Shown: piece by piece, positions 9,478-32,673 of the stretch
Layout of the letters: each line of letters opens with the position of its first letter
Position numbering within the stretch: position 1 is the first letter of the stretch
DNA from: Mesorhizobium shangrilense
Lineage (GTDB): Bacteria; Pseudomonadota; Alphaproteobacteria; Rhizobiales; Rhizobiaceae
Direction of reading: 5' to 3'
Assembly: GCF_040537815.1 (NCBI RefSeq)
Contig: NZ_JBEWSZ010000011.1
Location: 45,507 to 109,506, forward strand
DNA: 64,000 bases
Position numbers and translations under genes: made by a program
The notes under the pieces: generated by a model
The model's input: only the letters and a program-made list of their open reading frames with translations
What the model was told of the DNA's origin: nothing
Database searches by the model: none

Positions 9478-9489
9478 CCTTTGTTTCTA

Positions 9490-14462: not shown

Positions 14463-15059
14463 CGGATTTCATCCAACCCGACCTTCGCATCGGGTCGAGT
14501 TAATCTGACGGCGATGAAAATTGAAGTCTACCCGCATTTTCCCAAGATTGATCTTGTCTGGATGGACGATCTGGAACCCGATATGGCCAAGCCTCGATTG
14601 ATGAACCGTCACGCCTGAACTCAATATCCTTTAGCGATATCTGATGATCATGCATCCCTCGTTTGGAGGATGCAAGGACGGTACTGCACTGCCAGTTTTG
14701 CCGCGATCTGTTGTATCGGCGAAAACGCGCTACCGGCAGCGCAGAGTGCATATCAGTGTTATCAAAGCGCCTGGCGTTAGGCTTCTGTATCGCGATTTCT
14801 GCATCTCCGGAGCTCGCTAAAGACGCGGCGTGCGCAGCCGAAGATAACCTGCAAGCCCAATGCTACAAGCGCTCCCAGATGCTTCAGCAAATGTTAGGTA
14901 TGAAAGACACAACGTTGATCTTCAATCACCTGGCGTTTGCTACAACGCAGGCCGCAATCGCTCATGGCGCTAGCAAAACCATGAGAAGGCAATTGCGCGC
15001 CTAGCGGATTGTTTCTGGATGCTTTCGGATGCGCTTCTGTTGCTATGGCTACCCAGACA
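14463..15059. other. 597-base gap, no confident gene
   Basis: The region upstream of the LuxR-type gene contains its promoter. A plus-strand open frame (14663-15004, 113 codons) has five cysteines but no domain, no clear ribosome-binding site and no neighbour it fits with. Its translation looks like chance coding. A short inverted repeat (GCATCC ... GGATGC) lies near 14653-14675. Nothing else stands out. Confidence 0.5.
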
Positions 15060-16716: not shown

Positions 16717-17256
16717 CTAGGGTCTGGCCGCGAAGTCGAAGCGGCAATGGTCGTGCCCTTCGCAGGCACACCGCACCTCCCCCGCTTCGACGTTGCTCGG
16801 TAGCGCAACCGAATTGCCTAGCAGGAACGAGAACGCGCCGGTGACGAAACCCTCGAACATGTAGCAGACGCGCTGGCCCGTCGATTGCCCGGCGCGCTGC
16901 CCGGCCTCCAGAGCGAAAATCGAATTTCGCAGGCTGATTGAGCCGCGACGGTCGGCGGTGTCCAGGACGTCGATGGAGAACTGGCCCCAGCCGCGCTGCG
17001 ACAGGCGCTGGAAATAGTGGCGGAACGTCGCCTCAGGATCGAGGCCCTTGTCGCGCAACTGCGCCCCGCACCATTCGATGGCGGATTTCGCCGTCGCTGT
17101 GCGAAGCATGGCGCGATAGGCCTCGCGGCCAAGGGCTTCCTCGACCGCGAGATGATTGTTCACCAGGAAGTGCCTGGGCAGGTAGACCATCGGCAGTCCG
17201 TCGGTCCGCCAGATGCCGCTGGTTTCGTCGACATCGATGGGAACCGCGGGCTGCAC
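16717..17256 (-). CDS. V4R-domain protein (small-molecule-binding 4-vinyl reductase-like)
   Basis: The 179-residue cytosolic protein ends with the V4R pattern: GFVTGAFSFLLG, then EAGEVRCACEGHDHCRF, where the Cys-x-Cys-x4-His-Cys set resembles the metal or ligand site of V4R proteins. V4R domains are found in bacteriochlorophyll 4-vinyl reductase accessory proteins and in XylR-type aromatic sensors. Here it stands alone with no DNA-binding domain. The start is a GTG at 17256. It is the last gene of the operon that begins with the FAH-family gene, 21 bases after the amidohydrolase, so it probably helps bind or sense that pathway's substrate (inference). Confidence 0.7.
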   Translation of the reverse strand: MQPAVPIDVDETSGIWRTDGLPMVYLPRHFLVNNHLAVEEALGREAYRAMLRTATAKSAIEWCGAQLRDKGLDPEATFRHYFQRLSQRGWGQFSIDVLDTADRRGSISLRNSIFALEAGQRAGQSTGQRVCYMFEGFVTGAFSFLLGNSVALPSNVEAGEVRCACEGHDHCRFDFAARP

Positions 17257-17277: not shown

Positions 17278-18552
17278 TCAAGCCGCTTGCCGCTGCGAAG
17301 CGACCGAGGCGGAGTGGTCCTTGTAGAGCTCGCCATCCTTCATGATGACGACGAGGTTCTTCTCATGCACCATCATGTCGAGGTCCTTCAGCGGGTCGCC
17401 ATTGACCAGCAGCAGGTCGGCGATGAAGCCTTCCTTGACCATGCCGAGCTCGTCGCCAAGGCCCATCACCTGGCCGCCGAGCCGCGTGCCGCACTGCAGC
17501 GCCTCGCTTGGCGAATATCCCAGCAGGTCGACGAAATGCTTGAGGTCGCGGGCGTTGGTGCCCTGCGGCGTCTGCGCGAAACCATAGTCGCCGCCGATCA
17601 GTGCGCGCACGCCGCGCTTGCGCAATTCGGTGTAGACCTTACGGCTGTCGTCGAGGATGCGCTGCATGCCGAACTTCACCGCCATCTCATGGGTGAAGCC
17701 GAAGGGCTCGCCCTCGTAGAGCGTGCCGTAGATGATGCCGATGGCCGGGCCGACGAAGATGCGGTCCTTGGCCGATTCCAGCGCATCCAGCGCTTCCTCG
17801 TCGGCGGATTCGCAGTGGTAGATGACGTCGACGCCGCACTTCACCGCGCGCTTCACCGAACCGGCGGCGCGGGCATGGCAGTTGATCTTCTTGCCGAAGT
17901 CACGCGCCACCGACACCGCCGTCATCACCTCGGCCTCGCTCATGACGGTAAGCCCGCCATGCGCCGCCGGGCTGAGATCATCACCCGAAATGTTGATCTT
18001 GATATTATCGGCGCCCTCGCGGCAGCACAGCCGCACCGCCTTGGTGATCTCCTCGACGCCGTCGGCGATCATGCCGAAGCTCTCGTGATACATGTGCTGC
18101 TGGCGCTCGTCGCCGAGACCGCCGGTCACCGTGATTTCTGGGCTGCCGGCACGCATGCGCGGCCCCGGCAGCCGGCCGGCGTTGATCTCGTTGCGGATGA
18201 CGATGTCGAGCCTCAGCTTCGAGGTCGCGGCGCTGTAGGCGCTGGTGAAGCCATGGTCGAGCAGCGTCTTGGCATTGCGCATGGTGAGCAGCAGATGCTC
18301 CTCGGGCGGGATCAGGCCGAGATCGGAATCCTTGATCGCGCCACCGAAGGAAATGTGGGCATGGCCTTCGACAAGGCCCGGCATCAACGTCATGCCGCGG
18401 CATTCGACGGTGGTGGCACCCTCGCCGGACAATTGTCCCGGCGTGCGCGCAATGGCGCTGATGCGGCCATTCTCGACCAGCAGATCGGCTGGAAAGGCGT
18501 CAGCGCCCGTGCCATCCCAGATCATGGCATTGCGGAACATCACTCTTGTCAT
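17278..18552 (-). CDS. Amidohydrolase family protein (imidazolonepropionase/prolidase-like)
   Basis: This 424-residue metal-dependent hydrolase has the TIM-barrel amidohydrolase pattern. An N-terminal beta-sandwich strand (MFRNAMIWDGTG) leads to the first metal motif GLVEGHAHISF (near residue 60). Then come INCHARAAGSVKRAVKCGVD, HCESADEEAL and a late aspartate in IGGDYGFAQT, with C-terminal LGDELGMVKEGFIADLLLVN typical of the family. It belongs to the carboxypeptidase Sgx9260/prolidase-like amidohydrolases that cleave amide or lactam bonds of small compounds. It sits 27 bases after the FAH-family gene in the same operon. The natural substrate is unknown. Confidence 0.88.
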   Translation of the reverse strand: MTRVMFRNAMIWDGTGADAFPADLLVENGRISAIARTPGQLSGEGATTVECRGMTLMPGLVEGHAHISFGGAIKDSDLGLIPPEEHLLLTMRNAKTLLDHGFTSAYSAATSKLRLDIVIRNEINAGRLPGPRMRAGSPEITVTGGLGDERQQHMYHESFGMIADGVEEITKAVRLCCREGADNIKINISGDDLSPAAHGGLTVMSEAEVMTAVSVARDFGKKINCHARAAGSVKRAVKCGVDVIYHCESADEEALDALESAKDRIFVGPAIGIIYGTLYEGEPFGFTHEMAVKFGMQRILDDSRKVYTELRKRGVRALIGGDYGFAQTPQGTNARDLKHFVDLLGYSPSEALQCGTRLGGQVMGLGDELGMVKEGFIADLLLVNGDPLKDLDMMVHEKNLVVIMKDGELYKDHSASVASQRQAA

Positions 18553-18579: not shown

Positions 18580-19464
18580 TTATTGATTGACGGCCTGCGC
18601 GGCGAGGACGTCGTCGGCAACGACATTGGACAGGATGCCGACGTCTTCCAGTTCCACCTCGCAAATGTCGCCATGCTTCATGAACAGCTGCGGCTTGCGC
18701 GCCATGCCGACGCCCGACGGCGTGCCGGTGACGATGACGTCGCCCGGCTCCAGCGTGATCGCTTCGCTGATGATCGAGATCAGCGACACGACATCGAAGA
18801 TCATGTCGCTGGTCGAGGCGTTCTGCACGACCTCGCCGTTGAGGCGTGTCTGGATGCGCAGCCCCTTGCCGCCCGGCGGCAGCTCGTCCGCCGTCACGAA
18901 GACCGGCCCGAACGATCCGGTGCCGTCGAAATTCTTGCCGACGGTCCATTGCGGCGACTTGGTCTGGAAGTCGCGGATCGAGGCGTCGTTGAAGATGGAA
19001 TAGCCGGCGACATGGCTTAGCGCCTGACTGCGGGCGATGTGGCGGCCGGCCTTGCCGATGACAGCCACCATCTCCCCCTCATAGTCGAGCTGGACCGAAG
19101 CCTCCGGCCGGCGGATGGCCGCGCCATGGCCGATCAGGCTGGTCGAGAAGCGGGCGAACAGCGTCGGATAGGTCGGCGGCACGAAGCCGCTCTCGATCGA
19201 ATGGTCGACATAGTTCAGGCCGACGCAGATGATCTTGCCCGGCGCCGATATCGGCGGCAGCCACTGCACTGATTGCGGATCGACGCGCCGCCCCTTGGCC
19301 AGCCGTTCGCCGGCCGCCTGCAGCGCATCCGGGCCCTCGGCAATGAGTTCCTCCAGCCGTCCGGGAAACGTCGCGTCGCTCTCGTTGATGCCGCGGAACT
19401 CGCCTCCCGGCAATGCAATCGCCAATCCCGAACCCTGCGGCGACCTATAGGCTGCAAATCTCAC
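18580..19464 (-). CDS. Fumarylacetoacetate hydrolase (FAH) family protein
   Basis: This is the first gene of a three-gene catabolic operon. The FAH fold is identified by CVGLNYVDHSIESG, the metal ligands in LDYEGEMVAVIGKAGRHI, then FNDASIRDFQ, TVGKNFDGTG and VIVTGTPSGVGMARKP. At 294 residues it fits the group of acylpyruvases, oxaloacetate decarboxylases and 2-keto-acid hydrolases. It probably cleaves a C-C bond in a diketo or keto-acid intermediate produced by the downstream amidohydrolase (inference from context). A FadR-type operator lies 50 bases upstream of the start. Confidence 0.88.
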   Translation of the reverse strand: MRFAAYRSPQGSGLAIALPGGEFRGINESDATFPGRLEELIAEGPDALQAAGERLAKGRRVDPQSVQWLPPISAPGKIICVGLNYVDHSIESGFVPPTYPTLFARFSTSLIGHGAAIRRPEASVQLDYEGEMVAVIGKAGRHIARSQALSHVAGYSIFNDASIRDFQTKSPQWTVGKNFDGTGSFGPVFVTADELPPGGKGLRIQTRLNGEVVQNASTSDMIFDVVSLISIISEAITLEPGDVIVTGTPSGVGMARKPQLFMKHGDICEVELEDVGILSNVVADDVLAAQAVNQ

Positions 19465-19513
19465 TGGTCACGTCCCTGTTTGTGAAGGCTGGACTTTGTG
19501 CAGAAATTATATA

Positions 19514-19525
19514 TCTGTCAACAGA
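19514..19525. promoter_or_regulatory. FadR/GntR-type operator, site 1
   Basis: TCTGT-CA-ACAGA is a perfect inverted repeat within a longer AT-rich palindrome-like stretch (TATA ... ATATA). It lies between the FAH operon start (19464) and the GntR gene start (19609). The T-x-TGT-CA-ACA-x-A pattern fits FCD-domain GntR sites and recurs at 24238-24249. Confidence 0.75.
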
Positions 19526-19608
19526 GAATATATTATTTTGCATTCTGACTTCTGCCGGGCATATTGTATGACGGCATCCGATGGACAGATTCGGCCGCGG
19601 GCAAACGA

Positions 19609-20310
19609 ATGGCTAGAGAAGGCTCGATCAATCTCACCCAGGGCGCGTATGAGGATTTGCGCGCCGACCTTTTGTCGTGCCGGATCGCGCCCGGCAGCCG
19701 GCTCAAGGTGCAGGAACTATGCGACAGGCTGTCGGTCAGCCTCGGCGCCATCCGCGAGGCGCTGTCGCGCCTGACCTCGGAAGGCCTTGTGGTGGCCGAG
19801 CCGCAGCGTGGCTTTCGCGCCGCGCCGATCTCGGCCGAAGACCTGCTCGACCTCACCAAGACGCGCATCCAGATCGAGACGCTGTGCATCCGCCGCGCCA
19901 TAGAGGTCGGCGACGTGGCCTGGGAATCGCAGCTGGTCGCCGCACTGCACCGGCTGTCGCGCACGCCCGAGCATACGCCCGACGATCCCGTGCTTTCGAG
20001 CGACGAATGGGCGACCGCGCACGCGGCCTTCCACAAGGCGCTGGTCGGCGGCTGCGACAGCCACTGGCTGCTGCGCCTGCGCGACCAGCTTTATGACCAG
20101 AGCGAGCGCTATCGCCGCAGGTCTGTCTCGCTGGCGCCCAACGCCCGCAACATCAGCAAGGAGCATCAGGATCTGGCCGGCGCCGTGCTCGACCGCGACG
20201 CGGACAAGGCCGCGGCGTTGCTGGCCTCGCATCTGGCTGTCACCACCGACATCCTGCTGGCGGCCGAAGCCGACGACCTGCCGGCGCGCAAGACGATTGA
20301 GCGGGCATAG
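19609..20310 (+). CDS. GntR-family regulator, FadR (FCD-domain) subgroup
   Basis: The 233-residue regulator has a winged helix at about 8-70 (GAYEDLRADLLSCRIAPGSR and SLGAIREALSRLTSEGLV). The all-helical FCD ligand domain follows, with KTRIQIETLCIRRAIE, HAAFHKALVGGCDS and EHQDLAGAVLDRDADKAAAL; its histidines and acidic residues usually hold a metal and a carboxylate effector. The ATG at 19609 is preferred over a TTG at 19564 because homology starts there. It is divergent from the FAH/amidohydrolase/V4R operon and convergent with the polyamine-type ABC operon. It probably controls both through the two matching operators. Confidence 0.9.
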   Translation: MAREGSINLTQGAYEDLRADLLSCRIAPGSRLKVQELCDRLSVSLGAIREALSRLTSEGLVVAEPQRGFRAAPISAEDLLDLTKTRIQIETLCIRRAIEVGDVAWESQLVAALHRLSRTPEHTPDDPVLSSDEWATAHAAFHKALVGGCDSHWLLRLRDQLYDQSERYRRRSVSLAPNARNISKEHQDLAGAVLDRDADKAAALLASHLAVTTDILLAAEADDLPARKTIERA

Positions 20311-20338
20311 CGTTTCATTCGCGTTCCTCGGACAACAA

Positions 20339-20374
20339 GCAAGACGCCGCCCGCTCAAACGGGCGGCGTCTTGC
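20339..20374. terminator. Strong bidirectional hairpin between convergent genes
   Basis: A 15-bp perfect stem (GCAAGACGCCGCCCG and its complement) with a 6-base loop (CTCAAA) lies between the GntR stop (20310) and the binding-protein stop (20384). There is no clear T run, so termination is inferred from strength and position. Confidence 0.75.
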
Positions 20375-20383
20375 GTGTCAGGC

Positions 20384-21430
20384 TTACTGGCGCAGATTGG
20401 TCCAGATGCGGTCATACGCCCGGGTCGCCTTCTCGTCGCATGACGGCGCAAACGAGATCTTCAGGTCGGCCGGCGGATTGAACTCGGGCGAGCCGCCGAT
20501 GTCCGGCGACAGGTACTTGTTCGATCCGGCGATGGCGCTCTGGTAGCCGGTGTATTTCTGCTGCAGCGCAATGTTTTCGGGGTCCATCAGGAAGTTGAGG
20601 AACTTCTTGGCATTGTCGACATTGGGCGCTGTCGAAGGCACCGCGACATTGTCCATCCAGCCAACCACGCCTTCCTTGGGATAGACATATTTGACCGTCG
20701 GCTTCTGCTGCCGTGTCGCCAGCGCCTTGCCCGACCACTGCTCGTGCATGACCGTCTCGCCGGCAACCTGGCGCTCGACGATCCCATCGGAATTGTAGAC
20801 CTTCACGAAGGGCTTCTGCGCCTGCAGCAAGGCGTCGAGTTCCTTGAGGTCCGCTGGGTTGCTGTTGCACTGGTCCTTGCCGAGATAGACCAGCGCCAGC
20901 GACATCACTTCGCTGGGCGAGCCGAACATGCCGACCTTGCCCTTGAGTTCCGCGGGCGGATCGAACAGCGGCTTCAAACTGTCGGTCGGCCCCTTGTAGA
21001 CGGCGGTGTCGACCGAGAAGGAAGTGGTGCCCCAGACCCACGGCACGGTGTATTTCGCATCGGGATCCCAGGGCCGGTGCTGCCATTTCGGATCGACATT
21101 CTTGAAGTTCGGCATCGCCCCCGCGTCGACTTCCTGGAACAGCTTCTGCTTGACGAAGATCGGCACGAAATCGTTGCTGATGATCATCACGTCATAGCCG
21201 GCCGCGCCCGAGCTCAGCTTGGCGAGCGCGGTCTCGTTGGAATCATAGGTGTCGATGGTGACCTTGATCCCGGTCTCCGCCTCGAACTTCTTGATCATCT
21301 CGTCCGACGTGTAGTCAGTCCAGTTGTAGATGTGCAGCTCGCCGGCATCGGCGAGTGCCGTGGTGGTGATCGCCCCCATCATGGCGGCGGCCAGGGCTAG
21401 TCCAGAAAATCCTTCTTTCCATTTGGTCAT
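20384..21430 (-). CDS. ABC transporter substrate-binding protein, spermidine/putrescine type
   Basis: This 348-residue periplasmic protein is of the PotD/PotF class. A signal peptide (to about residue 28, ending ALADA) is followed by LHIYNWTDYTSDEMIKKFEA, which is diagnostic for this class. Then come KVTIDTYDSNETALAKLSSG, PWVWGTTSFSVD and the C-terminal LMDPENIALQQKYTGYQSAI. Ligand-contact aromatics and acids (Trp and Tyr in YNWTDY, Asp in VGWMDNVAVPS) are present, so an amine or polyamine-like cargo is plausible. It is the last gene of the operon in the order ATPase, permease, permease, binding protein. Confidence 0.92.
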   Translation of the reverse strand: MTKWKEGFSGLALAAAMMGAITTTALADAGELHIYNWTDYTSDEMIKKFEAETGIKVTIDTYDSNETALAKLSSGAAGYDVMIISNDFVPIFVKQKLFQEVDAGAMPNFKNVDPKWQHRPWDPDAKYTVPWVWGTTSFSVDTAVYKGPTDSLKPLFDPPAELKGKVGMFGSPSEVMSLALVYLGKDQCNSNPADLKELDALLQAQKPFVKVYNSDGIVERQVAGETVMHEQWSGKALATRQQKPTVKYVYPKEGVVGWMDNVAVPSTAPNVDNAKKFLNFLMDPENIALQQKYTGYQSAIAGSNKYLSPDIGGSPEFNPPADLKISFAPSCDEKATRAYDRIWTNLRQ

Positions 21431-21463
21431 TGTCGTTCTCCTCTGATCTGGTTCTTTGTTTTT

Positions 21464-22267
21464 CTAGGCAAACCTGTTGCGTCGTCCGACGAGCAGCGCC
21501 GCCGCGACGAAGACGATGGAAACGGCAAGAAGGATGGTGGAGATGGCGTTGACCTCGGGCGTCACGCCAAGCCGCATCATGCCGTAGATGTAGACGGGCA
21601 AGGTGGTCGATCCCGCGCTCGACACCATCATCGAGATCAGGAAATCATCGAGCGAGACGACGAAGGCCATGATGGCGCCGGCCGAGATCGCCGGGACCAG
21701 CAAAGGCAGCGTGACACGGCGAAACAGCCGCCACTCGTCGGCATAGAGGTCGCGGCCCGCCTCCTCCAATGTCCCGCCCATGTCGCGCAGCCGCGCCTGG
21801 ATCGGCAGCAGCGCGAACGGGATGCAGAAGACCGTGTGGGCGATCATCAGGTTGATCAGCCCGTGATGCATGCCGAGCCCCGAAAAGAAGATCAGCGTGG
21901 TGATCGCCACGACGATCTCCGGCACCACCAGCGGCATCGCGATCAACGCGGTTGCGGCGCCGCGCCCGAAGCGCAACCGGCCGCGTTCCAGCGCCAGCGC
22001 GCCAGCGGTGGCGATCGCCGTCGAGGCGATGGTGGCGACGACAGCGACGACGACGCTGTTGAAGGCGGCGTCGCGGATCGCGCCATTGTTGGCGACCGCC
22101 ACGAACCATTTGAAACTGAAGCCGGCCCATACGGTGACCAGCCGGCTCGAATTGAAGGCGTAGATCACCAGGATCAGCAGCGGCGCGTAGAAGAACAGGA
22201 ATATGAGAGCGGTGTAGGCGGACAGGCCGGGCGTATGCCGCCAGTCGAAGGGTTTCGCGCCGTTCAT
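21464..22267 (-). CDS. ABC transporter permease, PotC-like
   Basis: The 267-residue membrane protein has six predicted helices. The permease signature EEAGRDLYADEWRLFRRVTL, followed by LPLLVPAISAGAIMAFVVSL and DDFLISMMVS, contains the EAA loop that docks on the ATPase and closely matches PotC. It overlaps the stop of the PotB-like gene by four bases, as expected for coupled translation. It forms the second half of the transmembrane channel. Confidence 0.92.
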   Translation of the reverse strand: MNGAKPFDWRHTPGLSAYTALIFLFFYAPLLILVIYAFNSSRLVTVWAGFSFKWFVAVANNGAIRDAAFNSVVVAVVATIASTAIATAGALALERGRLRFGRGAATALIAMPLVVPEIVVAITTLIFFSGLGMHHGLINLMIAHTVFCIPFALLPIQARLRDMGGTLEEAGRDLYADEWRLFRRVTLPLLVPAISAGAIMAFVVSLDDFLISMMVSSAGSTTLPVYIYGMMRLGVTPEVNAISTILLAVSIVFVAAALLVGRRNRFA

Positions 22268-23133
22268 CGCCGCTCCTCCTGTGCCCTGCGCGAACGGATG
22301 ACGAAGACCGCCAGCACCACGACAGTCACGACCGTCGAGAGCGCGGCGCCAAAAGGCCAGTTTCGCGATGATGTGAATTGCATCTGGATCAGGCTGCCGA
22401 TCAGCAGCTTCTTGCCACCGCCGAGCAGGTCCGGCGCCAGGAACGAGCCCAGCGCCGGCGCGAACACCAGCGTGGCGCCGGCCAGCGCGCCGGGCCTCGC
22501 CAGCGGCCAGACGATACGGCGGAAGACGGCGGCACGGCTGGCATAGAGATCGTGCGCGGCCTCGATCAGCCGGGGGTCGATGCGCTCTAGCGTCGAATAG
22601 ATCGGCAGCACCATGAAGGGCAGGAAGGTGTAGACGAGGCCGAGCAGGATCGACCCGTCATTGTAGAGCAGCGGCAAGGGATCGGAGATGATGCCGGCAT
22701 GGCGCAACGCACCGTTCGCCAGGCCCTCGTCGCGCAGGATCAGGATCCAGCAATAGGTGCGGATCAGCGTGTTGATCCAGAACGGCAGCGTGACGGCGAA
22801 CAACAGGATGCGCCGCCGCTCGGGCGTCTGGCAGACGATGTACCAGGCGACCGGCAGCCCGAGCACAAGGCAGATGCCGGTGGTGGCGATGGCCAGGTAG
22901 ACCGAGCGCAGGATGATCAGCGCATAGCTCGGCGAAAACACCAGGCTGTCGTCGAAATCGCGCTGGTAGAGGAACTGCAGATAGGCGTCGAATGTCGCCG
23001 GCGCGGTCACCCCTCCATAGGGGTTGGCCGTCATGAAGGAATAGCCGACCGCCAGGAACAGCGGCAGGACCATGAAAATGCCGATGACCAGCATGGCCGG
23101 CGCGATCAGCAGGTAGGTGCGTTTCTCGCCCAT
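22264..23133 (-). CDS. ABC transporter permease, PotB-like
   Basis: The 289-residue membrane protein has six helices and the EAA motif IEAAHDLYASRAAVFRRIVW, then PLARPGALAGATLVF. The start at 23133 (MGEKRTYLLIAPAM) is chosen because it places the first helix correctly and lies just after the stop of the ATPase gene at 23141. A longer in-frame extension would overlap that gene deeply. It pairs with the PotC-like permease. Confidence 0.9.
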   Translation of the reverse strand: MGEKRTYLLIAPAMLVIGIFMVLPLFLAVGYSFMTANPYGGVTAPATFDAYLQFLYQRDFDDSLVFSPSYALIILRSVYLAIATTGICLVLGLPVAWYIVCQTPERRRILLFAVTLPFWINTLIRTYCWILILRDEGLANGALRHAGIISDPLPLLYNDGSILLGLVYTFLPFMVLPIYSTLERIDPRLIEAAHDLYASRAAVFRRIVWPLARPGALAGATLVFAPALGSFLAPDLLGGGKKLLIGSLIQMQFTSSRNWPFGAALSTVVTVVVLAVFVIRSRRAQEERR

Positions 23134-23140
23134 CGCCGCC

Positions 23141-24139
23141 TCAGTTCGCCAGTTCGCGTTCGACGTCGCGCGCCCAGTCGACGACGACCATGTCGCCGGT
23201 CGAGAGCACCACCCCCCCGCGAGAGCGCGAATGCAGCCTTGCCCCCTCGTCGAGGACAACTTCATAGAGCGTGTCGGAGCCGAGGAAGGTGATGGCCGAG
23301 ACCGCGCCCCTGGCGTGGCCGCTAGCGCCATCCGATGCCGGCGACACGACGATGTGTTCGGGGCGCACGACGATGGTCTTCGCCGGATCGCGGCCAAGGG
23401 CGGCACCGGGCAAGAGGTTGGACTCGCCGATGAAGTCGGCGACGAAGCGGTCCTGCGGATTGTCGTAGATGTCCCGGGGCGTACCGACCTGCAGCACGTG
23501 GCCATTGCGCATCACCGCGATCCGGTCGGACATGGCCAGCGCCTCCTCCTGGTCGTGGGTGACGAGCACGAAGGTGATGCCGGTTTCGCGCTGCAGCCGC
23601 TTCAACTCGCTCTGCATGCCCTTGCGCAGTTTGAGGTCGAGCGCCGACAGCGGCTCGTCGAGCAGCAGCACGCTGGGTTTCGGAGCGAGGGCACGCGCCA
23701 GCGCGACGCGCTGCTGCTGGCCGCCCGACAGTTGCGCCGGGCGGCGCGTGGCGAAGCCGTCGAGCCGCACCATCTCCAGCGCTTGGCCAACGCGCTCGTC
23801 CACCAGCGACTTCGGCGCGCGCTGCATCTCCAGCCCGAACGCGACATTCTCGGCCACGCTCATATGCGGGAACAGCGCATAGCTCTGGAACACGGTGTTG
23901 ACCGGCCGCTTCTGCGGCGGCAAGGCCGCGACATCGGCGCCGGCAATGCGGATGGCGCCGGAGCTCGGCACTTCGAAGCCGCCAATCAGGCGCAGCAAGG
24001 TCGTCTTGCCGCAACCGGACGGGCCGAGCAGGGTGAAGAACTCATTGTCGTAGATATCGAGGCTGACATCCTTCAGCGCATGGACGGGATCGGCATCCCT
24101 GGTCACGAAGGATTTTGACACGCTTTGGATGTCGATCAT
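23141..24139 (-). CDS. ABC transporter ATP-binding protein, PotA-like
   Basis: This is the first gene of the polyamine-type operon, with 332 residues. Visible motifs are Walker [17 protein letters not shown], the Q loop, the signature [16 protein letters not shown], Walker [12 protein letters not shown] and the switch histidine in VTHDQEEAL. The C-terminal regulatory TOBE domain (about 240-330) has [19 protein letters not shown] and VRPEHIVV. The start at 24139 has CAGGAA upstream. Its promoter region carries the second FadR-type operator, so it is likely regulated together with the FAH operon. Confidence 0.92.
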
Positions 24140-24237
24140 GACCGGCGAAATTCCTGGACTGCGTTGAGATGGCCTTGCGTATCGAAGGGGCATCGCGGCC
24201 GTTCGATCCGCACCTAAAAATTCGCCTCAAAATTATA

Positions 24238-24249
24238 TTTGTCAACAAA
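24238..24249. promoter_or_regulatory. FadR/GntR-type operator, site 2
   Basis: TTTGT-CA-ACAAA is a perfect inverted repeat in front of the PotA-like gene, about 100 bases upstream of its start. The flanks repeat those of site 1: AATTATAT before, and AATATATT with a T run and TTGC after. This points to the same regulator. Confidence 0.75.
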
Positions 24250-24417
24250 TAATATATTGTTTTTGCGTTGTGCGCACAAAAGCCTTGGCGAGCGCATCGA
24301 CCCGCCATCACCGCTTCGGCGTGTGACATCGTTTCAGGGTTGTGGCCGCACCCCGCCCGATGCGCGGGCGGATCACCGCACCCGCGTCAATGCCTCGTCA
24401 CTGCCCTGTCCGGAACC

Positions 24418-25509
24418 TCAGAGAACCTTGCCGCTCCGGGGATCGAGCAGGTGCATATGGGCCATGCCGAACGACAGCGTCGCCATTTCGCCGGGTTTCG
24501 GCGTCGATGCGGGATCGATCCGCGCCGTTGCCTCGCCGCCGGCGATAACAACATGCAGCAACGTCTCCATGCCCATCGGCTCGACCACCTCGACCCCAGC
24601 CTTGACGTCGACGACATCGGGGCGCTCGCGCCGCTCGGTGATGTGCTCGGGACGCATGCCGAACTCCAGCTCGCGCCCGGCATGGCCGGCATAGCGTGCG
24701 GTGCGGGCGGCAGGAACGGCAAGTTCGGTACCATCCGCCAGCACGACCGCGAGCCGGTCGCCACGCGCTTCCAGGCGGCACTTGAAGAAGTTCATGCCGG
24801 GGCTGCCGATGAAGCCTGCGACAAACCGGCTCGCCGGCTCGTGATAGAGATCGTTGGGCGGCCCGATCTGTTCGATGCGCCCCTTGTTCATCACCACCAC
24901 GCGATCGGCCAGCGTCATCGCCTCGACCTGGTCATGGGTGACGTAGACGGTCGTCGTGGCGACCATCTGGTGCAGCTTCTTGATCTCGGCGCGCATCTTG
25001 CCCCGCAGCTTGGCGTCGAGGTTGGAAAGCGGCTCGTCGAACAGGAACACCTTTGGCTGGCGCACCATGGCGCGGCCCATGGCGACGCGCTGGCGCTGGC
25101 CGCCGGACAGCTGGTGCGGCTTGCGCTGCAGGAGTTCGCTGAGGTCGAGCATTTCAGCGACACGCGCGATGCGCTGCGTCACCTCGGCGGCAGGCACTTT
25201 GCGGATGCGCAGGCCGAAAGCCATATTCTCAGCCACCGTCATCTGCGGATAGAGCGCGTAGCTCTGGAAGACCATGGCGATATCGCGGTCCCTGGCCTGG
25301 ACGTCGTTGACCAGCCGGCCGCCGATAAGGATCTCGCCGCCGCTCGGCCTGTCCAGTCCCGCCACCATGCGCAGCGTCGTCGACTTGCCGCACCCGGACG
25401 GTCCGACGAGGACGACGAACTCGCCCTCGGCGATCTCGAGGTCGATATCGTGCACCACCTTGAGGTTCTGATAGCTCTTCGAGATCTTGCGCAGTTCCAC
25501 ATCGGCCAT
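24418..25509 (-). CDS. ABC transporter ATP-binding protein, sugar type (UgpC/MsmK-like)
   Basis: The 363-residue ATPase is of the carbohydrate-uptake CUT1 group. It shows Walker A GPSGCGKSTTLRMVAGL, signature LSGGQRQRVAMGRAMVR, Walker B FLFDEPLSNLD and switch His in VTHDQVEAM. A long C-terminal MalK-like regulatory domain (about 235-363) contains DLYHEPASRFVAGFIGSP and FGMRPEHI. The start at 25509 (MADVELRKI) is used because a GGGAAGGGAA stretch precedes it. It is the last gene of the sugar operon, four bases after the ROK gene, and powers the two permeases at the operon's head. Confidence 0.93.
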   Translation of the reverse strand: MADVELRKISKSYQNLKVVHDIDLEIAEGEFVVLVGPSGCGKSTTLRMVAGLDRPSGGEILIGGRLVNDVQARDRDIAMVFQSYALYPQMTVAENMAFGLRIRKVPAAEVTQRIARVAEMLDLSELLQRKPHQLSGGQRQRVAMGRAMVRQPKVFLFDEPLSNLDAKLRGKMRAEIKKLHQMVATTTVYVTHDQVEAMTLADRVVVMNKGRIEQIGPPNDLYHEPASRFVAGFIGSPGMNFFKCRLEARGDRLAVVLADGTELAVPAARTARYAGHAGRELEFGMRPEHITERRERPDVVDVKAGVEVVEPMGMETLLHVVIAGGEATARIDPASTPKPGEMATLSFGMAHMHLLDPRSGKVL

Positions 25510-25513
25510 GGTG

Positions 25514-26440
25514 CTATTCCCTTCCCGGCGCGAACATGTCGAGCGCCAGTGCCGCGGCGCCAATCACGCCGGCATCATTGCCATGCTCCACCGTCACGAT
25601 GGCCGGCGGGCGGCCGGGCTTCAGCAGCACGAAATCCCTGACATTGCGGGCAATGCGATCGGTGAAGAACGGCCCGGCCAGCGACAGGCCGCCGCCGATG
25701 ATCGCCGCTTCGATATTGAGCATGTTGGACATGATGCCGATCATCTGGCCCAGCCAGCGCGCCACCTCGTCGACCACCTGCAGCGCGATCGGCTCACCCT
25801 CCTTGGCGAGATCGCAGACCATCTTGGCATTCGCCGCATCGGTGTCAGGCTTGAGCTGGCGATAGCGGTTGACCAGCGCACGGGCGCTGGCCAGGTTCTC
25901 GACCATGCCCGGCACCGGGTCGGCAATGTCGGTACGGGCCGGGTCGAGCGAGATGCAGCCTAGCTGCGGCGGCAGCCCGTCCGGCCCGTCGATGACCTTG
26001 CGGTCGATGACCATCGCGCCGCCAATGCCGGTGCCCAGCGTGATCAGTGCGAAGCGGGAAAACGGACGCCCGGCGCCATGCCGCATCTCGCCATGGGTGG
26101 CGCAGACCGCATCGTTGCGAACAATGGCGGGCACGCCGAAATGGGCGCTGAACAGTTTTGACAGCGAGCCCTTCAGCAGAGCGGGGATCGCCGGGCAGCG
26201 GCCATTGAGCATGCCTGTCTCGGGATTTGGCGTGCCGGGCACGCCGATGCCGATCGTGGTGATCGCCGGAAACGCCCGCGTCAGTTCTTCGGTGGCTTTG
26301 GTGACCTGACCGACGAAATCCTCGAACTCGATATCGCGGTGCACCGGGACAGCGCCGCGCATCAGCACCTTGCCCGAACCGTCGACGGCGCCAAGCTTGA
26401 CCAGGCTGCCGCCAATGTCGATTCCGATCGCGACTGTCAT
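25514..26440 (-). CDS. ROK-family sugar kinase-like protein lacking the zinc motif
   Basis: The 308-residue ROK fold protein has phosphate-1 IGIDIGGSLVKLGAV at the start, the catalytic Asp in VRNDAVCATHGE (near 110) and LITLGTGIGGAMVIDRKV. The usual ROK zinc region (E-x-x-GH ... C-x-C-G-x-x-G-C-x-E) is replaced by PPQLGCISLDPART and IADPVPGMVENLAS. Neither the His nor the Cys set is present. It may still phosphorylate a sugar or may be a sensor. It overlaps the SIS gene by four bases (ATGA), so the two are translationally coupled in a sugar ABC operon. Confidence 0.82.
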   Translation of the reverse strand: MTVAIGIDIGGSLVKLGAVDGSGKVLMRGAVPVHRDIEFEDFVGQVTKATEELTRAFPAITTIGIGVPGTPNPETGMLNGRCPAIPALLKGSLSKLFSAHFGVPAIVRNDAVCATHGEMRHGAGRPFSRFALITLGTGIGGAMVIDRKVIDGPDGLPPQLGCISLDPARTDIADPVPGMVENLASARALVNRYRQLKPDTDAANAKMVCDLAKEGEPIALQVVDEVARWLGQMIGIMSNMLNIEAAIIGGGLSLAGPFFTDRIARNVRDFVLLKPGRPPAIVTVEHGNDAGVIGAAALALDMFAPGRE

Positions 26441-27483
26441 CAGGGCTCCTTGCGGATGCGCACGTTCAACCGGCGTCCGAGATTGGGATAGATCATCTTG
26501 TCGGGATCGATGCCGCGCGCGATCGCCAGCTCGCAGCCATACCATTGCAGCGGGATCGGCGCCCAGCAACCGGCCAGCCATTGCTGTTCCGGCGCCAGCG
26601 GCCAGCTGACATCGAGGTCGAAGCGGGTCGGATGTCCCGAAAGGTTGAGGACCACCGCGCGCGGCCCGAGCTCGGCCAGTGCCTCGCCCAGATTGGCGGC
26701 CACCTTGGCCTCGGTCTCGGTCTGCGCGATGGCGATCACCAGGCTCTTGTCGGTGGTGCCGTAGACATGGCCATGCAGCGCCTCCTCCGTATCGAAGGCG
26801 GCGGTCGGCACGCCGCTGATCTCGGCGATCTTCAGCGATGCCTCGAGCGCGGTGCCGAGATGCGTCGCCTGCCCGGCAACCAATATGTAGTCGGGAACGC
26901 CGAAGCGGGTGATCAGGTCCTTGGCGGCGGCCAGGCCGGTTTCGGCCGTCCGCTCCAGCTGGCCGACCAACCCCGACAGATCGCACGTCTTGTCGGCAAG
27001 CCTGGCGGCAACCGCCAGCACTGAGATGACGGTGGCGGTGTAGCCCATGGTCTTGGGGCCAACGGTTTCGGGACCGATCGGCATAACGATGATCTCGGCG
27101 CCCGTTTCGGTGATCAGGCTGTCGGCCTCACCGGTGATGACAAGCGTCGGAAAGCCGCTGGCGACCGACAGGCGCACAGCCTCGATGGTGGTGATGCTCA
27201 TGCCCGACTGCGAGGCGGCGAGAACCAGCGTGCGCTGGCCGGTTTGTTTTGGCGGCAGGCGCAGGAAGGCCTCCGGCTCCTTGGCGATCACCGACGCGCC
27301 GGTCCCTTCCTCCAGCGCCTCGGCGCCGGCCAGCAGCGCGTTCATCGACGACCCGGTGCCGAGCAGCACGATCCGCTCGGGCTTTTGGCTGAGGCAAGCG
27401 AAACTGTTGATGTCCGCGCCGATGGCGGCGGGGAGCGACGCAAGGGTCGACGGCTGCCGGCGGATGTAATTGCCTATCTGCAT
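26440..27483 (-). CDS. SIS-domain protein (sugar isomerase/deaminase, AgaS/FrlB-like)
   Basis: The 347-residue protein contains two SIS (phosphosugar-binding) domains. The first has ERIVLLGTGSSMNALLAGAE and VLAASQSGMSITTIEAV; the second, from about residue 195, has YILVAGQATHLGTALEASLK, then IAEISGVPTAAFDTEEALHG. The GTGSS loop, serines in SQSG and the Glu-rich FDTEEALHGH are the sites that bind phosphosugars and deaminate or isomerise them in GlmS-, AgaS- and FrlB-type enzymes. There is no glutaminase domain, so it is not GlmS. With the ROK protein and the ABC genes it points to an amino sugar or fructosamine-like substrate (inference). Confidence 0.87.
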   Translation of the reverse strand: MQIGNYIRRQPSTLASLPAAIGADINSFACLSQKPERIVLLGTGSSMNALLAGAEALEEGTGASVIAKEPEAFLRLPPKQTGQRTLVLAASQSGMSITTIEAVRLSVASGFPTLVITGEADSLITETGAEIIVMPIGPETVGPKTMGYTATVISVLAVAARLADKTCDLSGLVGQLERTAETGLAAAKDLITRFGVPDYILVAGQATHLGTALEASLKIAEISGVPTAAFDTEEALHGHVYGTTDKSLVIAIAQTETEAKVAANLGEALAELGPRAVVLNLSGHPTRFDLDVSWPLAPEQQWLAGCWAPIPLQWYGCELAIARGIDPDKMIYPNLGRRLNVRIRKEP

Positions 27484-27547
27484 GTCAATGTTCCATCAGT
27501 TCGAAAGTGTCGGTGTTTGAAAATCTGTCGCGTCAGGTGGCGCCGGT

Positions 27548-28420
27548 CTATTTGCTGTAGCCCTTGCTCAGGCCGCTGATGAACTGCCGCGAGAACAGGG
27601 TGAACAGCACCACCAGCGGCACCGCGCCGAGTGTCAGCGCTGCCAGAAGTGCCGGATAGTCGTTCATGAACTGCCCGACGAATTGCTGCACGCCGAGCGT
27701 CACCGTCTGGTTCTGCTTGCTTGGCGCCAGGATCAGCGGGAACCAGAGGTCGTTCCACACCGGCAGCATGGTCAGCGCGGCCACAGCGGCGAGACCGGGC
27801 CTGACCAGCGGCAGCACGATCCAGAAGGTGCGCAACTCACTCGCACCATCCATGCGGGCCGCTTCCTTGAGGTCAGTGGGCACGGTGCGGAAATAGGTGA
27901 CCATCAGCGTCACCGCGATCGGGATGCTCATGGCGGTGTAGACGAGGATGAGCGCTACCAGCGTGTCCATCAGCTTCCACGCCATCATCATCTGGATGAT
28001 GGGAATGGTGCCCAGCCGGATCGGCAGCATGATGCCGAGCACGAACAGCCCGCCGATGAGCGAGGTGATGCGCACGCGGTATTCGACCAGCGCGAAAGCG
28101 GCGAGCGTCGACACCACGATCGTCAACACGATCGTGGTCACGGTGACGACCAGACTGTTGCGGTAGTTGACAATGAAATTGCCGCGCGTGAAGACCCGCT
28201 TGTAGCCTTCGAGGCTGAAGGTTTTGGCCGTCGGAAGGTCGAACGGCCCACCAAAAATCGCCGGCGTCGTCTTCAGCGAATTGATGATGACGATCAGCAC
28301 CGGCCCGATGGCAAGCAGGACGAACAGGATCAGCAGCGCATGCACGATGATGCGCTCGAAGGTCCAGGGTTCGCTGCCCTGGCGGCGCGCACGTGGCATG
28401 GCGAGGTCTGGGGCGCTCAT
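27548..28420 (-). CDS. Sugar ABC transporter permease, MalG-like
   Basis: The 290-residue protein has six helices and a MalG-type N-terminal segment. The EAA loop reads LKEAARMDGASELRTFWIVL, followed by PLVRPGLAAVAALTMLPVW. It begins 10 bases after the MalF-like gene and precedes the SIS gene by 64 bases. It forms the channel with its partner. Confidence 0.92.
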   Translation of the reverse strand: MSAPDLAMPRARRQGSEPWTFERIIVHALLILFVLLAIGPVLIVIINSLKTTPAIFGGPFDLPTAKTFSLEGYKRVFTRGNFIVNYRNSLVVTVTTIVLTIVVSTLAAFALVEYRVRITSLIGGLFVLGIMLPIRLGTIPIIQMMMAWKLMDTLVALILVYTAMSIPIAVTLMVTYFRTVPTDLKEAARMDGASELRTFWIVLPLVRPGLAAVAALTMLPVWNDLWFPLILAPSKQNQTVTLGVQQFVGQFMNDYPALLAALTLGAVPLVVLFTLFSRQFISGLSKGYSK

Positions 28421-28430
28421 GTCAGCTCTC

Positions 28431-29318
28431 CTAGACCGAGTAGGATTTCAGGCGGCGCTGCACCAGCCAGAAGTAGACGGCTGTCACCACCAGCACGGTG
28501 GTGAAGATCACCGTCGCCACCGCCGCGCCGAGATCGAGATCGGCAAGCTGCCCGCTCGAGCCGAAGAAGGTGCGGTAGAAATAGGTGCCGAGGATGTCCG
28601 TGCTGTAATTCGGCCCGGGCGCCGAACCGTTCAGCGCGAACACCAGGTCGAAGCCGTTGAATGTCCAGATATAGGTGAGGATGGCGATCAGCCCGAATTG
28701 CGGCGCGATCAGCGGAAACTTGATCTTCCAGAAGGTCGTCCAGCCGCCGGCGCCGTCGATATTTGCGGCCTCGACAAGCTCGTTGGGCACCGCCAGCAGG
28801 GCGCTGTAGAGAAAGACCATCGGTATCCCGAAATACTGCCACACCGACATCAGCGAGATGGTGGTGAGCGCGGTCGATTCGGTGCCCAGCAGCGGAAAGC
28901 CGACCAGCCCCCACAGCGGATTGATGATCAGGCGCCAGACGAAGCCGACGATCACCACCGACAGCGTCGCCGGAATGAACAGGAGCGTGCGGTAGATGCC
29001 TTCCGAGCGCGCAAGCTTGCCCGAGGTCAGCAGCGCCGCCAGCAGCAGCCCCATCGGGACTTCGACAATGAGATGGATGGCGAAATACTGCATGTTGTTG
29101 AGCAACGCATTCCAGAAGCGGGCGCTGATGGTCGGGTGGGTGAAAAGACGTTCGTAATTGGCGAGGCCGACGAAGGTGTCACCCGAGGCGCCATTGGTCT
29201 GGAAGAAGCTCATGACGATCGAGGTCGCCAGCGGCAGCACGGCAAAGACCAGGTAGACGGCCAGGGCCGGCAGCACGAACAGCAGCAGGTTTCTGTAGGC
29301 GGCAGCGGGAGATATCAA
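28431..29318 (-). CDS. Sugar ABC transporter permease, MalF-like
   Basis: The 295-residue protein has six helices, opening with YRNLLLFVLPALAVYLVFAV. The EAA loop is LVEAANIDGAGGWTTFWKIK, then FPLIAPQFGLIAILTYIWTF and NGFDLVFALN, typical of CUT1 permeases. It is preceded by a hairpin that separates it from the binding-protein gene, which may lower permease expression relative to the binding protein. Confidence 0.92.
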   Translation of the reverse strand: MISPAAAYRNLLLFVLPALAVYLVFAVLPLATSIVMSFFQTNGASGDTFVGLANYERLFTHPTISARFWNALLNNMQYFAIHLIVEVPMGLLLAALLTSGKLARSEGIYRTLLFIPATLSVVIVGFVWRLIINPLWGLVGFPLLGTESTALTTISLMSVWQYFGIPMVFLYSALLAVPNELVEAANIDGAGGWTTFWKIKFPLIAPQFGLIAILTYIWTFNGFDLVFALNGSAPGPNYSTDILGTYFYRTFFGSSGQLADLDLGAAVATVIFTTVLVVTAVYFWLVQRRLKSYSV

Positions 29319-29368
29319 CGGATGACCTCATGTTCACGCCGGCGGGGATGCGCGGCGTGCCCGAGAGA

Positions 29369-29395
29369 TTACGCGCGGCCGGTTGCCGCGCGTAA
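29369..29395 (-). terminator. Hairpin between binding-protein and permease genes (attenuator-like)
   Basis: An 11-bp perfect stem (TTACGCGCGGC and its complement) with a 5-base loop lies 11 bases from the binding-protein stop. There is no T run, so partial termination or 3' mRNA protection is more likely than full termination. Confidence 0.6.
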
Positions 29396-29406
29396 CCTGC
29401 CCTGGA

Positions 29407-30675
29407 TTACTTCTTTTGCGGTCCGTACCAGGATGCAAGCCCGGTCTGCAGCTCGGTGGCGACCTGCTGCGGCGTGACGTCCAGCTTGGTGTACATCACC
29501 TGCAGCAGGCGCCAGGTCTCGTCGTCGAGCGGCGGCGTGCCGGCGCTCAGGCGATCAAGCGCCAGGCGTGGCGTGAGCTGTGCGCCCTTCTTCAGATCGG
29601 CGAAATCCTGCGCCAGCTTGTTCTTGTAGGCGACCGGCTTGTTGCCCATGGCAAAGAAGCCAGGCGCGGCATTGACGTAGAGTTCCTGGAATTCAGGCCC
29701 GGCAACCCAGTCGAGGAAGGTTTTGGCCGCTTCCTTGTGCGTGCTCTTGGCATTGATGCCGATGCCCATGTCCGGCATTTCCTGCAGGTAACGCTGGTCG
29801 CCGGCCTTCGGCACCGGCGGCCCGAACACGCCGACATTGAGGCCGGTCGAGGTCGCCTGGTTGATGTCCCACGAGCCGTCGGGAAGGATCGCCGCCTTGC
29901 CCAGTGTGAACAGCTGCGTCATGTCGGCATAGTTCAGGCTCTCCTGCCCGGCAGGCAGGAACGGCTTCCAGGCCGCGAAGGCGGCGATGGCATCGACGAA
30001 CTCGGGATCGGTCAGCTTCTTCTTGCCGTCGATCAGGCCAAGCCGGCCCTCCTCGCCTTTCCAGTAGGCCGGGCCGATGCTGTAGAGACCGTTATAGGCG
30101 AGCTGCCAGGATTCGGCCGCTCCGTAGGCCAGCGGCGTGTAGCGGCCGTCCTTCTTGATTGCCTTCAAGACATCGATGAACTCGGCGCTGGTGGTCGGCA
30201 CCTTCAGCCCCAGTTCCTTAAAGATATCGGCATTGTAGTAGAAGCCGGCCAGCACGGCGGCGACCGGCAGGCAGTAAGTCTTGTCGTCGGCGCCGCTCCA
30301 CGCAGCCCTGGAGGTCTTGTCGAAATTCGCCAGGCCCGGCAACCCTTCAAGAGATTCGAAATAGCCGCGTTTGATCCATTCGCGGTTCACGTCGAACGGC
30401 CGGCAGGTGATCAGGTCGCCACCGGCGCCGCCCTCGACCTGCGACTGGATGGCGGCGTTGTATTCATTGGTGTTGATCGGCGCGAACTCGACCTTGATGT
30501 CGGGATGCTTGGCTTCGAAGGCCGGCAGGATCGTGTCCTGCCAGACCGCGATGTCCTCGGTGCGCCAGCTGTTCAAGGTGATGGTGACAGGGTCGGCATA
30601 GGCAATGCCGACGCCACTGGAAAACATCACGCTGACAGTCATTGCCAGCGGGATCGATGCACGTATCGAACGCAT
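29407..30675 (-). CDS. Sugar ABC transporter substrate-binding protein
   Basis: This 422-residue protein of the SBP_bac_1 (CUT1) class heads the sugar operon. It has a signal peptide (about residues 1-28, ending IAYA) and then TITLNSWRTEDIAVWQDTIL, EAKHPDIKVEFAPIN, YGAAESWQLAYNGLY and LYVNAAPGFFAMGNKP. The start at 30675 follows a strong GAGGGAGGAG ribosome-binding site; the longer in-frame extension crosses the operator. The order binding protein, MalF, MalG, SIS, ROK, ATPase suggests uptake and first-step processing of one sugar or amino sugar. Confidence 0.92.
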   Translation of the reverse strand: MRSIRASIPLAMTVSVMFSSGVGIAYADPVTITLNSWRTEDIAVWQDTILPAFEAKHPDIKVEFAPINTNEYNAAIQSQVEGGAGGDLITCRPFDVNREWIKRGYFESLEGLPGLANFDKTSRAAWSGADDKTYCLPVAAVLAGFYYNADIFKELGLKVPTTSAEFIDVLKAIKKDGRYTPLAYGAAESWQLAYNGLYSIGPAYWKGEEGRLGLIDGKKKLTDPEFVDAIAAFAAWKPFLPAGQESLNYADMTQLFTLGKAAILPDGSWDINQATSTGLNVGVFGPPVPKAGDQRYLQEMPDMGIGINAKSTHKEAAKTFLDWVAGPEFQELYVNAAPGFFAMGNKPVAYKNKLAQDFADLKKGAQLTPRLALDRLSAGTPPLDDETWRLLQVMYTKLDVTPQQVATELQTGLASWYGPQKK

Positions 30676-30750
30676 TTTGGGCTCCTCCCTCAACACGGTG
30701 CTTCGTGTGGATTCACGATTTTGCACTGTTGCCCCGGACCATACATACTG

Positions 30751-30773
30751 ATACATCTTGTGACAAGTGGTAT
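30751..30773. promoter_or_regulatory. Probable HutC-type GntR operator in the divergent promoter region
   Basis: The 23-base imperfect palindrome reads ATAC-at-CTTGT-g-ACAAG-tg-GTAT, with 9 of 11 pairs matched about the central G. It lies between the sugar ABC operon and the oxidoreductase gene. The likely protein is the GntR/HutC regulator that is second gene of the rightward operon. Confidence 0.7.
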
Positions 30774-30862
30774 TGTGTTGTCTTTTCCACAGCGATAGGC
30801 GCCTTTCGGTTCGAACACCGCCGGATCGCCAAGATACCGGATCAAATTTTGGGGAGGATTTT

Positions 30863-31903: not shown

Positions 31904-32673
31904 CTGAGATGGAAGGCTCCCCGCTACAGTCGGACGGACCGGAGCCGCTGTGGCGGCTGGCCGCCGATGCGATCCTGCAGGAGATCGCCACCGGCAAGCT
32001 GGCGTCGGGCGCGCGTCTGCCGCCCGAGCGCGACCTGTTCACGCGCATGTCGATCAGCAGGGTCACCTTGCGCCGGGCCCTGCAAAGCCTGGTCGAGGAA
32101 GGCGTGCTGACGCCTTCCCATGGGCGCGGCTGGTATGTCTCGGCCAAGGTGCCGAAGGAATTTCCCAACACGCTGGAATCCTTCAGCGAGACCGCGCGGC
32201 GCCTGGGTCTTACGCCCTCCTCCGACGTGCTGCGCGCCGAGGAAGCGCCGGCCTCGCTGGACGAGGCCGAGGAGCTTTCCATCGCGCCCGGCGCGACCCT
32301 GTTTCATCTGGAGAGAATCCGGCGCCTCGACCAGGTTCCGGTCGCCGTCGACACCTCGTTCTTCGCCGCCGCCTTGGTTCCCGACCTCGGCAGCGTCGAC
32401 TTCAAGACGGCGTCGCTGTTCGGCCTGCTGATCAATGCCGGCGTCGACCTCGCCCGCGCCGAGACAACCATCGAGGCCCACGGCGCCGATCCCGTGCTGG
32501 CAGGCCATCTCGACATCGACGTTGGCAAATCCACGCTGGTCATGCGCCAGCTCATCGTCGATGCCGCTGGCCGCCCGCTGCTGTCCTCGACCATCCGCTA
32601 CGCCGGCGACCGCTATCGCCTGCGCACCTCGTTCTCCCGGACCGGAAGGACCACCGGCCGCAATCCGGGGTGA
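31900..32673 (+). CDS. GntR-family regulator, HutC (UTRA-domain) subgroup
   Basis: The 257-residue regulator has an N-terminal winged helix (PLWRLAADAILQEIATGKLA, then LPPERDLFTRMSISRVTLRR and GVLTPSHGRGWYVS). A UTRA effector domain from about residue 95 contains TLFHLERIRRLDQVPVAVDT, STLVMRQLIVDAAGRPL and LSSTIRYAGDRYRL. UTRA domains bind phosphosugars or related ligands, consistent with control of the neighbouring sugar operon. A GTG at 31900 overlapping the previous TGA is preferred; an ATG at 31909 and a GTG at 31876 are alternatives. It probably binds the palindrome at 30751-30773. Confidence 0.88.
   Translation: MTEMEGSPLQSDGPEPLWRLAADAILQEIATGKLASGARLPPERDLFTRMSISRVTLRRALQSLVEEGVLTPSHGRGWYVSAKVPKEFPNTLESFSETARRLGLTPSSDVLRAEEAPASLDEAEELSIAPGATLFHLERIRRLDQVPVAVDTSFFAAALVPDLGSVDFKTASLFGLLINAGVDLARAETTIEAHGADPVLAGHLDIDVGKSTLVMRQLIVDAAGRPLLSSTIRYAGDRYRLRTSFSRTGRTTGRNPG

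Follow-up and report, generated by a model that had tools for sequence, protein, structure and literature searches.

Two operons of Mesorhizobium shangrilense as a probable single regulon of a CsiR-like GntR/FCD regulator with predicted tandem A/T operator boxes

The window analyzed here is a 64,000-nucleotide stretch of the Mesorhizobium shangrilense genome (assembly GCF_040537815.1, contig NZ_JBEWSZ010000011.1, forward-strand positions 45,507-109,506). A gene for a GntR/FCD regulator (gntR) lies in it between two leftward operons, the first encoding an FAH-family hydrolase, an amidohydrolase, and a DUF5943 protein (FAH operon), and the second a Pot-type ABC transporter (pot operon). The original prediction had already placed gntR between the operons, as found here, and had proposed that both share a FadR-type operator centered on a short palindrome. 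The shared sequence lies in front of the FAH operon (site 1) and the pot operon (site 2), and in each we predict two A/T-rich boxes, left (L) and right (R). The features are given below in window coordinates; distances are in base pairs (bp), and box ranks refer to the 63,987 window positions scanned.

16717-17256, minus strand: DUF5943 protein with a V4R-like C terminus, third gene of operon 1 (Pfam DUF5943, 133.5 bits, cut-off 27)
17278-18552, minus strand: amidohydrolase, Xaa-Pro dipeptidase-like, second gene of operon 1 (Amidohydro_1, 64.9 bits, cut-off 25)
18580-19464, minus strand: FAH-family hydrolase, first gene of operon 1 (FAA_hydrolase, 229.6 bits, cut-off 23.9)
19503-19516: predicted operator box 1L, GAAATTATATATCT (11.4 bits, rank 6)
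19514-19525: palindrome 1 of the original prediction, between and overlapping boxes 1L and 1R; TTGACA on the minus strand at 19521-19516
19524-19537: predicted operator box 1R, GAGAATATATTATT, 21 bp from 1L (12.7 bits, rank 4)
19609-20310, plus strand: CsiR-like GntR/FCD regulator (GntR, 61.8 bits, cut-off 27; FCD, 76.2 bits, cut-off 24.3)
20339-20374, minus strand: terminator-like hairpin of 16 pairs, 3' of the PotD gene (the longest stem of 5 such matches in the window; 3.7 expected)
20384-21430, minus strand: PotD-type binding protein (NF007048, 183.8 bits, under the cut-off of 582)
21464-22267, minus strand: PotC-type permease (NF007047, 229.6 bits, under the cut-off of 326)
22264-23133, minus strand: PotB-type permease (NF007044, 229.9 bits, under the cut-off of 348)
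23141-24139, minus strand: PotA-type ATPase, first gene of operon 2 (TIGR01187 potA subfamily, 367.6 bits, above the cut-off of 355.6)
24229-24242: predicted operator box 2L, AAAATTATATTTGT (14.0 bits, rank 2)
24238-24249: palindrome 2 of the original prediction, between and overlapping boxes 2L and 2R; TTGACA on the minus strand at 24245-24240
24248-24261: predicted operator box 2R, AATAATATATTGTT, 19 bp from 2L (13.4 bits, rank 3)

The gntR product belongs to the GntR/FCD family, as its winged helix and its FCD domain both score above the Pfam cut-offs. The gene formerly labeled V4R is a DUF5943 gene instead, its V4R match of 27.2 bits staying under the Pfam gathering score of 31. The amidohydrolase aligns its metal-site residues (HxH, Lys, His, His, Asp) with solved relatives and is a member of the superfamily; the nearest structures are Xaa-Pro dipeptidase and arginine carboxypeptidase, and the equivalog cut-off for Xaa-Pro dipeptidase was not reached (200.3 versus 500 bits). 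The FAH protein comes closest to decarboxylases of the FAH family and to diketo-acid hydrolases. All four transporter proteins stay under their NCBIfam equivalog cut-offs (PotA with 386.5 bits versus 482). In an alignment with PotD, the binding protein retains the Trp and Asp of the amine end; the residues of the other end are not all kept. The gene content suggests import of an amine- or amino-acid-like amide, amide cleavage, and hydrolysis of a keto-acid intermediate, and an amide- or lactam-containing amine is a plausible substrate.

Both palindromes, TCTGTCAACAGA (TCTGT-CA-ACAGA) at site 1 and TTTGTCAACAAA (TTTGT-CA-ACAAA) at site 2, are embedded, as had been claimed, in one longer common context with AATTATAT on the 5' side and AATATATT plus a T run on the 3' side; the left part is offset by 2 bp between the sites, measured from GTCAA. 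The sequence TNTGTNNACANA occurs twice in the window against 0.14 expected, and 1 of 100 shuffles had two occurrences. In the whole genome (8,354,476 bases), the 21-bp element TNTGTCAACANANAATATATT matched at the two sites only, with up to 3 mismatches allowed, and the gapped pattern AAATTATATN{8,16}AATATATT, pairing AAATTATAT with AATATATT, did so as well; the backward-read control of each pattern gave no match. A chance origin of the shared sequence, which had been judged unlikely, is excluded, with no third copy in 8.35 Mb even at 3 mismatches. Just past site 2, at 24268-24279, lies a perfect palindrome, TTGTGCGCACAA, and relatives carry CACACGAAAGTGTG-like inverted repeats in the same place; it may be an additional operator or the terminator of the sugar-type ABC operon at 24418-32673, which includes ROK, SIS, and HutC-type GntR genes (names from the sequences; profile scan for the ATPase only).

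The sequence bound within this context is probably different from the one first proposed. All five arm pairs of TNTGT-CA-ACANA were present in 13 of 24 distinct Mesorhizobium contexts and in 0 of 5 outgroup contexts, and we rejected this palindrome as the operator core because its symmetry is not kept at orthologous sites. For an independent motif, 48 outgroup promoters were searched after removal of the Mesorhizobium loci, near duplicates, and homologues below 40% identity. The palindrome that emerged, AAAATnnATTTT, reached a log-likelihood of 196 at width 12, where six shuffled sets gave 24-29, and it contains no GT..AC. A scoring matrix was built from 41 of these promoters, leaving out 7 close relatives, and scanned over the window; ranks 2-6 (24229, 24248, 19524, 19526, and 19503) all fall at the two sites. 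Rank 1, 16915-16928 inside the DUF5943 gene, was rejected as a box, as the 5 relatives read, out of 8, keep the protein letters and not the box letters.

The boxes recur with a regular spacing. Of the 48 outgroup promoters, 28 have a box that reaches 14 bits; in these a second box was sought within 45 bp, and the second-best one lay at ±19 bp in 11 and at ±18 bp in 4; the mean box score was -10.7 at -19 and -11.4 at +19, versus -16 to -30 at other offsets. The matrix was further applied to held-out loci, 10 hand-picked from 30 plasmid records. A box of at least 12 bits was found within 200 bp upstream in 8 of the 10, the best promoter position was the best of its 6.5-kilobase (kb) locus in 9 of the 10, and 3 of 283 background tiles reached 12 bits.

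The recognition helix of the regulator (SVSLGAIREAL) was compared with those of known relatives. By eye alignment, Gln and Leu occupy the positions of the base-reading arginines, Gln ten residues before Leu, so that Leu stands at the G-reading position. Over 75 homologue rows, which include two (L017 and L023) whose helices look misplaced, Arg occurs at the Leu position in one, a 30% relative, whereas the Gln position holds Gln in 15 and Arg in 2. In Atu1419, Arg45 of the recognition helix reads an essential operator G, and a G-to-A change abolishes binding (excerpt of PMC7797058); FadR-subfamily statistics likewise link Arg at helix-turn-helix position 28 to a preference for G (excerpt of PMC4494728). 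A G-free operator would thus be expected for a regulator without the G-reading Arg.

With the GntR protein as query, homologues were collected at 42 loci from genome contigs, and the collection covered 297 genomes of the order. Eight of the nine named loci L033-L041 (93-97% identity) keep the order DUF5943-amidohydrolase-FAH, gntR, PotD-C-B-A and both sites. The ninth, L038, retains gntR (93%) and the PotD end only, its promoter and operator having been replaced and the site lost. Among 146 genomes of the genus, gntR was found in 13 and the amidohydrolase in 12; exactly two exact sites occur in these same 12 genomes (our own included), and the exact site is absent from all 134 genus genomes without the amidohydrolase. 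The informative parts of this survey are the absences and two genomes, G321 and G425, whose contexts lie outside the named loci. The remaining gntR genome of the 13, G427, lacks both the amidohydrolase and the site and probably corresponds to L038; L038/G427 is a natural orphan of the regulon.

The genus survey returned five additional one-mismatch sites, one each in G319, G331, G337, G341, and G369, none of which contains the left part AAATTATAT. Two (L077 and L082) lie at gntR genes of the same clade, 50-51% identical to that of the window, the L077 site being between gntR and a divergent FAH gene; for the other three, no related gntR neighbour was found in the 3 kb covered for each. The most likely reading of the L077 and L082 sites is that they serve as operators for related regulators, and this is in favour of the motif. 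These loci represent paralogous regulons with an almost identical operator, and cross-talk is possible where both occur.

The gene arrangement in other lineages was then compared. In the metagenome-assembled genome L045, FAH, amidohydrolase, DUF5943, and PotA-B-C-D stand in series on one strand, behind one site and with gntR divergent from them; its promoter has boxes, and none of its eight top-scoring positions (the lowest at 7.3 bits) falls between DUF5943 and PotA. A second such genome, L044, shows the same order up to the contig end within PotC. Besides their main box, the L044 and L045 gntR promoters have another (TATAATATATTATC, scoring 14.0 bits in L045) at a distance of 37 bp, which makes a third element, roughly in 19-bp phase. 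In L042, whose gntR is 73% identical, the transporter genes stand apart in an operon of their own that, like the one in the window, converges with gntR; a box of 19.5 bits lies upstream of PotB (14944-14957), with GTCAA immediately 5' of the box; PotA was not found in this transporter operon, nor FAH beside gntR. The record is named Mycobacterium sp. KBS0706, and the name is doubtful because its amidohydrolase groups with Inquilinus proteins. The single array of L045 and the split L042 operon with its own box indicate that enzymes and transporter belong together. The earlier claim of one regulon is well supported by these two arrangements and the genus profile, and so is a common cis element of the two operons.

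Mesorhizobium and L042, the two lineages with split operons, each have two copies of the element. Their gene orders resemble each other, so the splits may represent one shared event. The T run is variable among relatives after site 2 and nearly invariant after site 1, a pattern consistent with site 2 having been copied from the promoter segment of gntR and FAH. Beside the L042 pot operon lie a ROK-like gene and a HutC-type regulator (82% identical), and this neighbourhood may have moved as a block. An ArgE/DapE-type M20 deacylase adjoins gntR in L042 (10769-11890), L045 (10726-11853), and L044 (6092-6796), and no such gene was found at the Mesorhizobium locus; the deacylase is possibly a lost pathway member. 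The closest M20 relative in our genome is 52% identical and located elsewhere.

Wider searches gave no additional close copies of the amidohydrolase. In a class-wide draw of 385 genomes at 1e-190, our genome was the sole match, and the 17 genomes of the family of L042's genome gave no close copy besides that of L042. Among 248 genomes, more distant amidohydrolases (50-55%) occur in 7 from outside the genus, and others below 60% on 8 plasmids, in one of which a sugar-type ABC operon follows. Relatives of the regulator stand beside FAH and aromatic-type catabolism genes in five loci inspected. In L046 (Granulicella, an acidobacterium), FAH, an amino-acid permease, and an amidohydrolase lie at 6153-9815 behind the same operator type, the permease being between the two enzymes, and neither DUF5943 nor Pot genes were found; this cluster suggests transfer between phyla.

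The nearest NCBIfam model of the regulator is CsiR, with 154.9 bits against an equivalog cut-off of 218. CsiR/GlaR is a GntR/FCD repressor of glutarate catabolism in Escherichia coli and Pseudomonas putida. For E. coli CsiR, hydroxyl-radical footprinting defined the primary sites TTGTN5TTTT and ATGTN5TTTT, six nucleotides apart, along with two secondary sites, and glutarate releases the protein (excerpt of PMC6265302). We located these boxes in the K-12 sequence, where their starts are 19 bp apart, and this spacing is an external, experimentally anchored match to the 19-bp period found here. The outgroup matrix scored the second E. coli box at 14.3 bits, the second-best position of the 11-kb stretch, and E. 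coli CsiR has Val, not Arg, at the G-reading helix position. The P. putida protein gives two protected regions, one over -10/-35 (excerpt of PMC6667623). The window regulator therefore resembles CsiR/GlaR in its nearest model, in lacking the G-reading Arg, and in tandem boxes over the promoter, with spacings of 19 bp (site 2) and 21 bp (site 1) and the ±19 peak in the outgroup; it differs in scoring below the cut-off, in boxes of AAAATnnATTTT rather than WTGTN5TTTT, and in its target genes.

Other FadR-subfamily regulators were compared as well. The canonical members (TKGT/ACMA) and Atu1419 belong to the same protein fold class, and Atu1419, a tetramer, likewise has two palindromes (excerpt of PMC7797058); however, these read G through Arg45, whereas the window regulator has Leu and a G-free motif. 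There are precedents for unusual sites in NanR, with repeats bound cooperatively by three dimers, and in BioR, which binds TTATMKATAA (excerpts of PMC8012715 and PMC4494728, respectively), although both differ in sequence and spacing, and NanR needs an N-terminal extension (PMC8012715, same excerpt). Literature searches found nothing on DUF5943 and no title about GntR regulators for the motif AAAATCGATTTT, and those on GntR/amidohydrolase/FAH/V4R gene combinations led nowhere, as judged from listings.

Taken together, we consider it likely, with good confidence, that both operons form one regulon of the CsiR-like FCD repressor encoded between them, acting on tandem A/T boxes over both promoters. 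The computed basis comprises the shared sites and their restriction to genomes with the cluster, the clade motif with its spacing, and the single-array arrangement elsewhere. From these we infer a mode of binding in which the operator would be a pair of AAAATnnATTTT-type A/T palindromes with a spacing of 19 bp for the pot operon and 21 bp for the FAH operon. Repression would follow if two cooperating dimers, or a tetramer, covered the promoter and blocked RNA polymerase, and the gene gntR would itself be under the control of box 1R. The inducer releasing the repressor would be a pathway intermediate, probably, as the case of CsiR and glutarate suggests, an organic acid produced in the amidohydrolase/FAH steps.

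Between the boxes of each site, directed toward the leftward operon, stands TTGACA, which may be a -35 hexamer. Among the 28 outgroup promoters, GTCAA lies 5' of the box in 12 and TTGAC 3' in 4 (one with both), never reversed; it is always directed away from the box, as expected of the -35 hexamer of a promoter on that side. The TATAAT-like sequence in the left boxes may be the -10 of the leftward promoters; its position is offset by 2 bp from one site to the other, and neither site gave a standard promoter.

Several observations weigh against this interpretation. Neither site yielded a standard sigma-70 promoter, and the -35 assignment therefore rests on the orientation counts. The top-scoring window position (17.2 bits) lies inside the DUF5943 gene, the window boxes (11.4-14.0 bits) score below those of many homologues, and the boxes of site 1 are 21 bp apart instead of 19. 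Two of the 10 held-out promoters, and several training promoters, have no 12-bit box. The genus site pattern was written from sites already seen, and its backward-read version gave 3 one-mismatch matches in the 146 genomes. Finally, the link of the element to the window GntR protein is correlative.

Three other explanations were weighed against the CsiR-like regulon. According to the original prediction, one GntR dimer per operon binds a canonical FadR-type TNTGT-CA-ACANA (GT-N2-AC). The five symmetric arm pairs in the window 12-mers and the GTCAA kept at orthologous sites agree with it, and this spacing is known for some FadR-subfamily sites (excerpt of PMC4494728). We consider it unlikely: the arm pairs are incomplete in relatives (13/24 and 0/5), Leu stands where Arg45 reads G, the motif learned from the outgroup is a different, tandem palindrome, and the one-way orientation of GTCAA/TTGAC (12/28 and 4/28) makes the conserved core -35-like.

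A slightly weaker candidate, also improbable, is that the shared sequence is merely a copied AT-rich promoter, with GntR controlling the FAH operon and itself and the pot operon being independent. The similarity does take in -35- and -10-like sequence, and the variable T run of site 2 resembles a decaying copy; however, with a matrix blind to both sites, the boxes of site 2 outscore those of site 1. They are also kept in the Mesorhizobium relatives read, 30 of 40 columns are invariant in the core of site 2 as against 2 of 54 in the sequence flanking it on the 3' side, and a box is likewise present at the L042 transporter operon. That a different regulator of the genome binds the element is very improbable, even though the genome has 53 FCD matches. 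Among these, 30 loci were obtained and the helix was found in 20, the target included; the 19 others reach at most 8.0 bits upstream, against 12.7 for the target. Moreover, the motif recurs upstream of the clade's own genes in other lineages, and gntR, site, and enzymes co-occur.

Beyond this locus, and held somewhat less firmly than the regulon itself, we think it probable that a widespread FCD/GntR clade, many of whose members stand beside FAH-type catabolic genes, reads G-free AAAATnnATTTT in 19-bp-phased tandem arrays, with the G-reading Arg replaced. The window cluster would be one of its regulons, an undescribed import and amide-cleavage pathway whose genes form a single array in some lineages, whereas other lineages have two operons and a copied operator. 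Motif searches based on GT..AC would overlook such a regulator clade, for which this provides a concrete predicted operator and co-regulated gene set. The transporter is also linked to specific enzymes, and a single ligand question would therefore bear on regulator, binding protein, and pathway alike.

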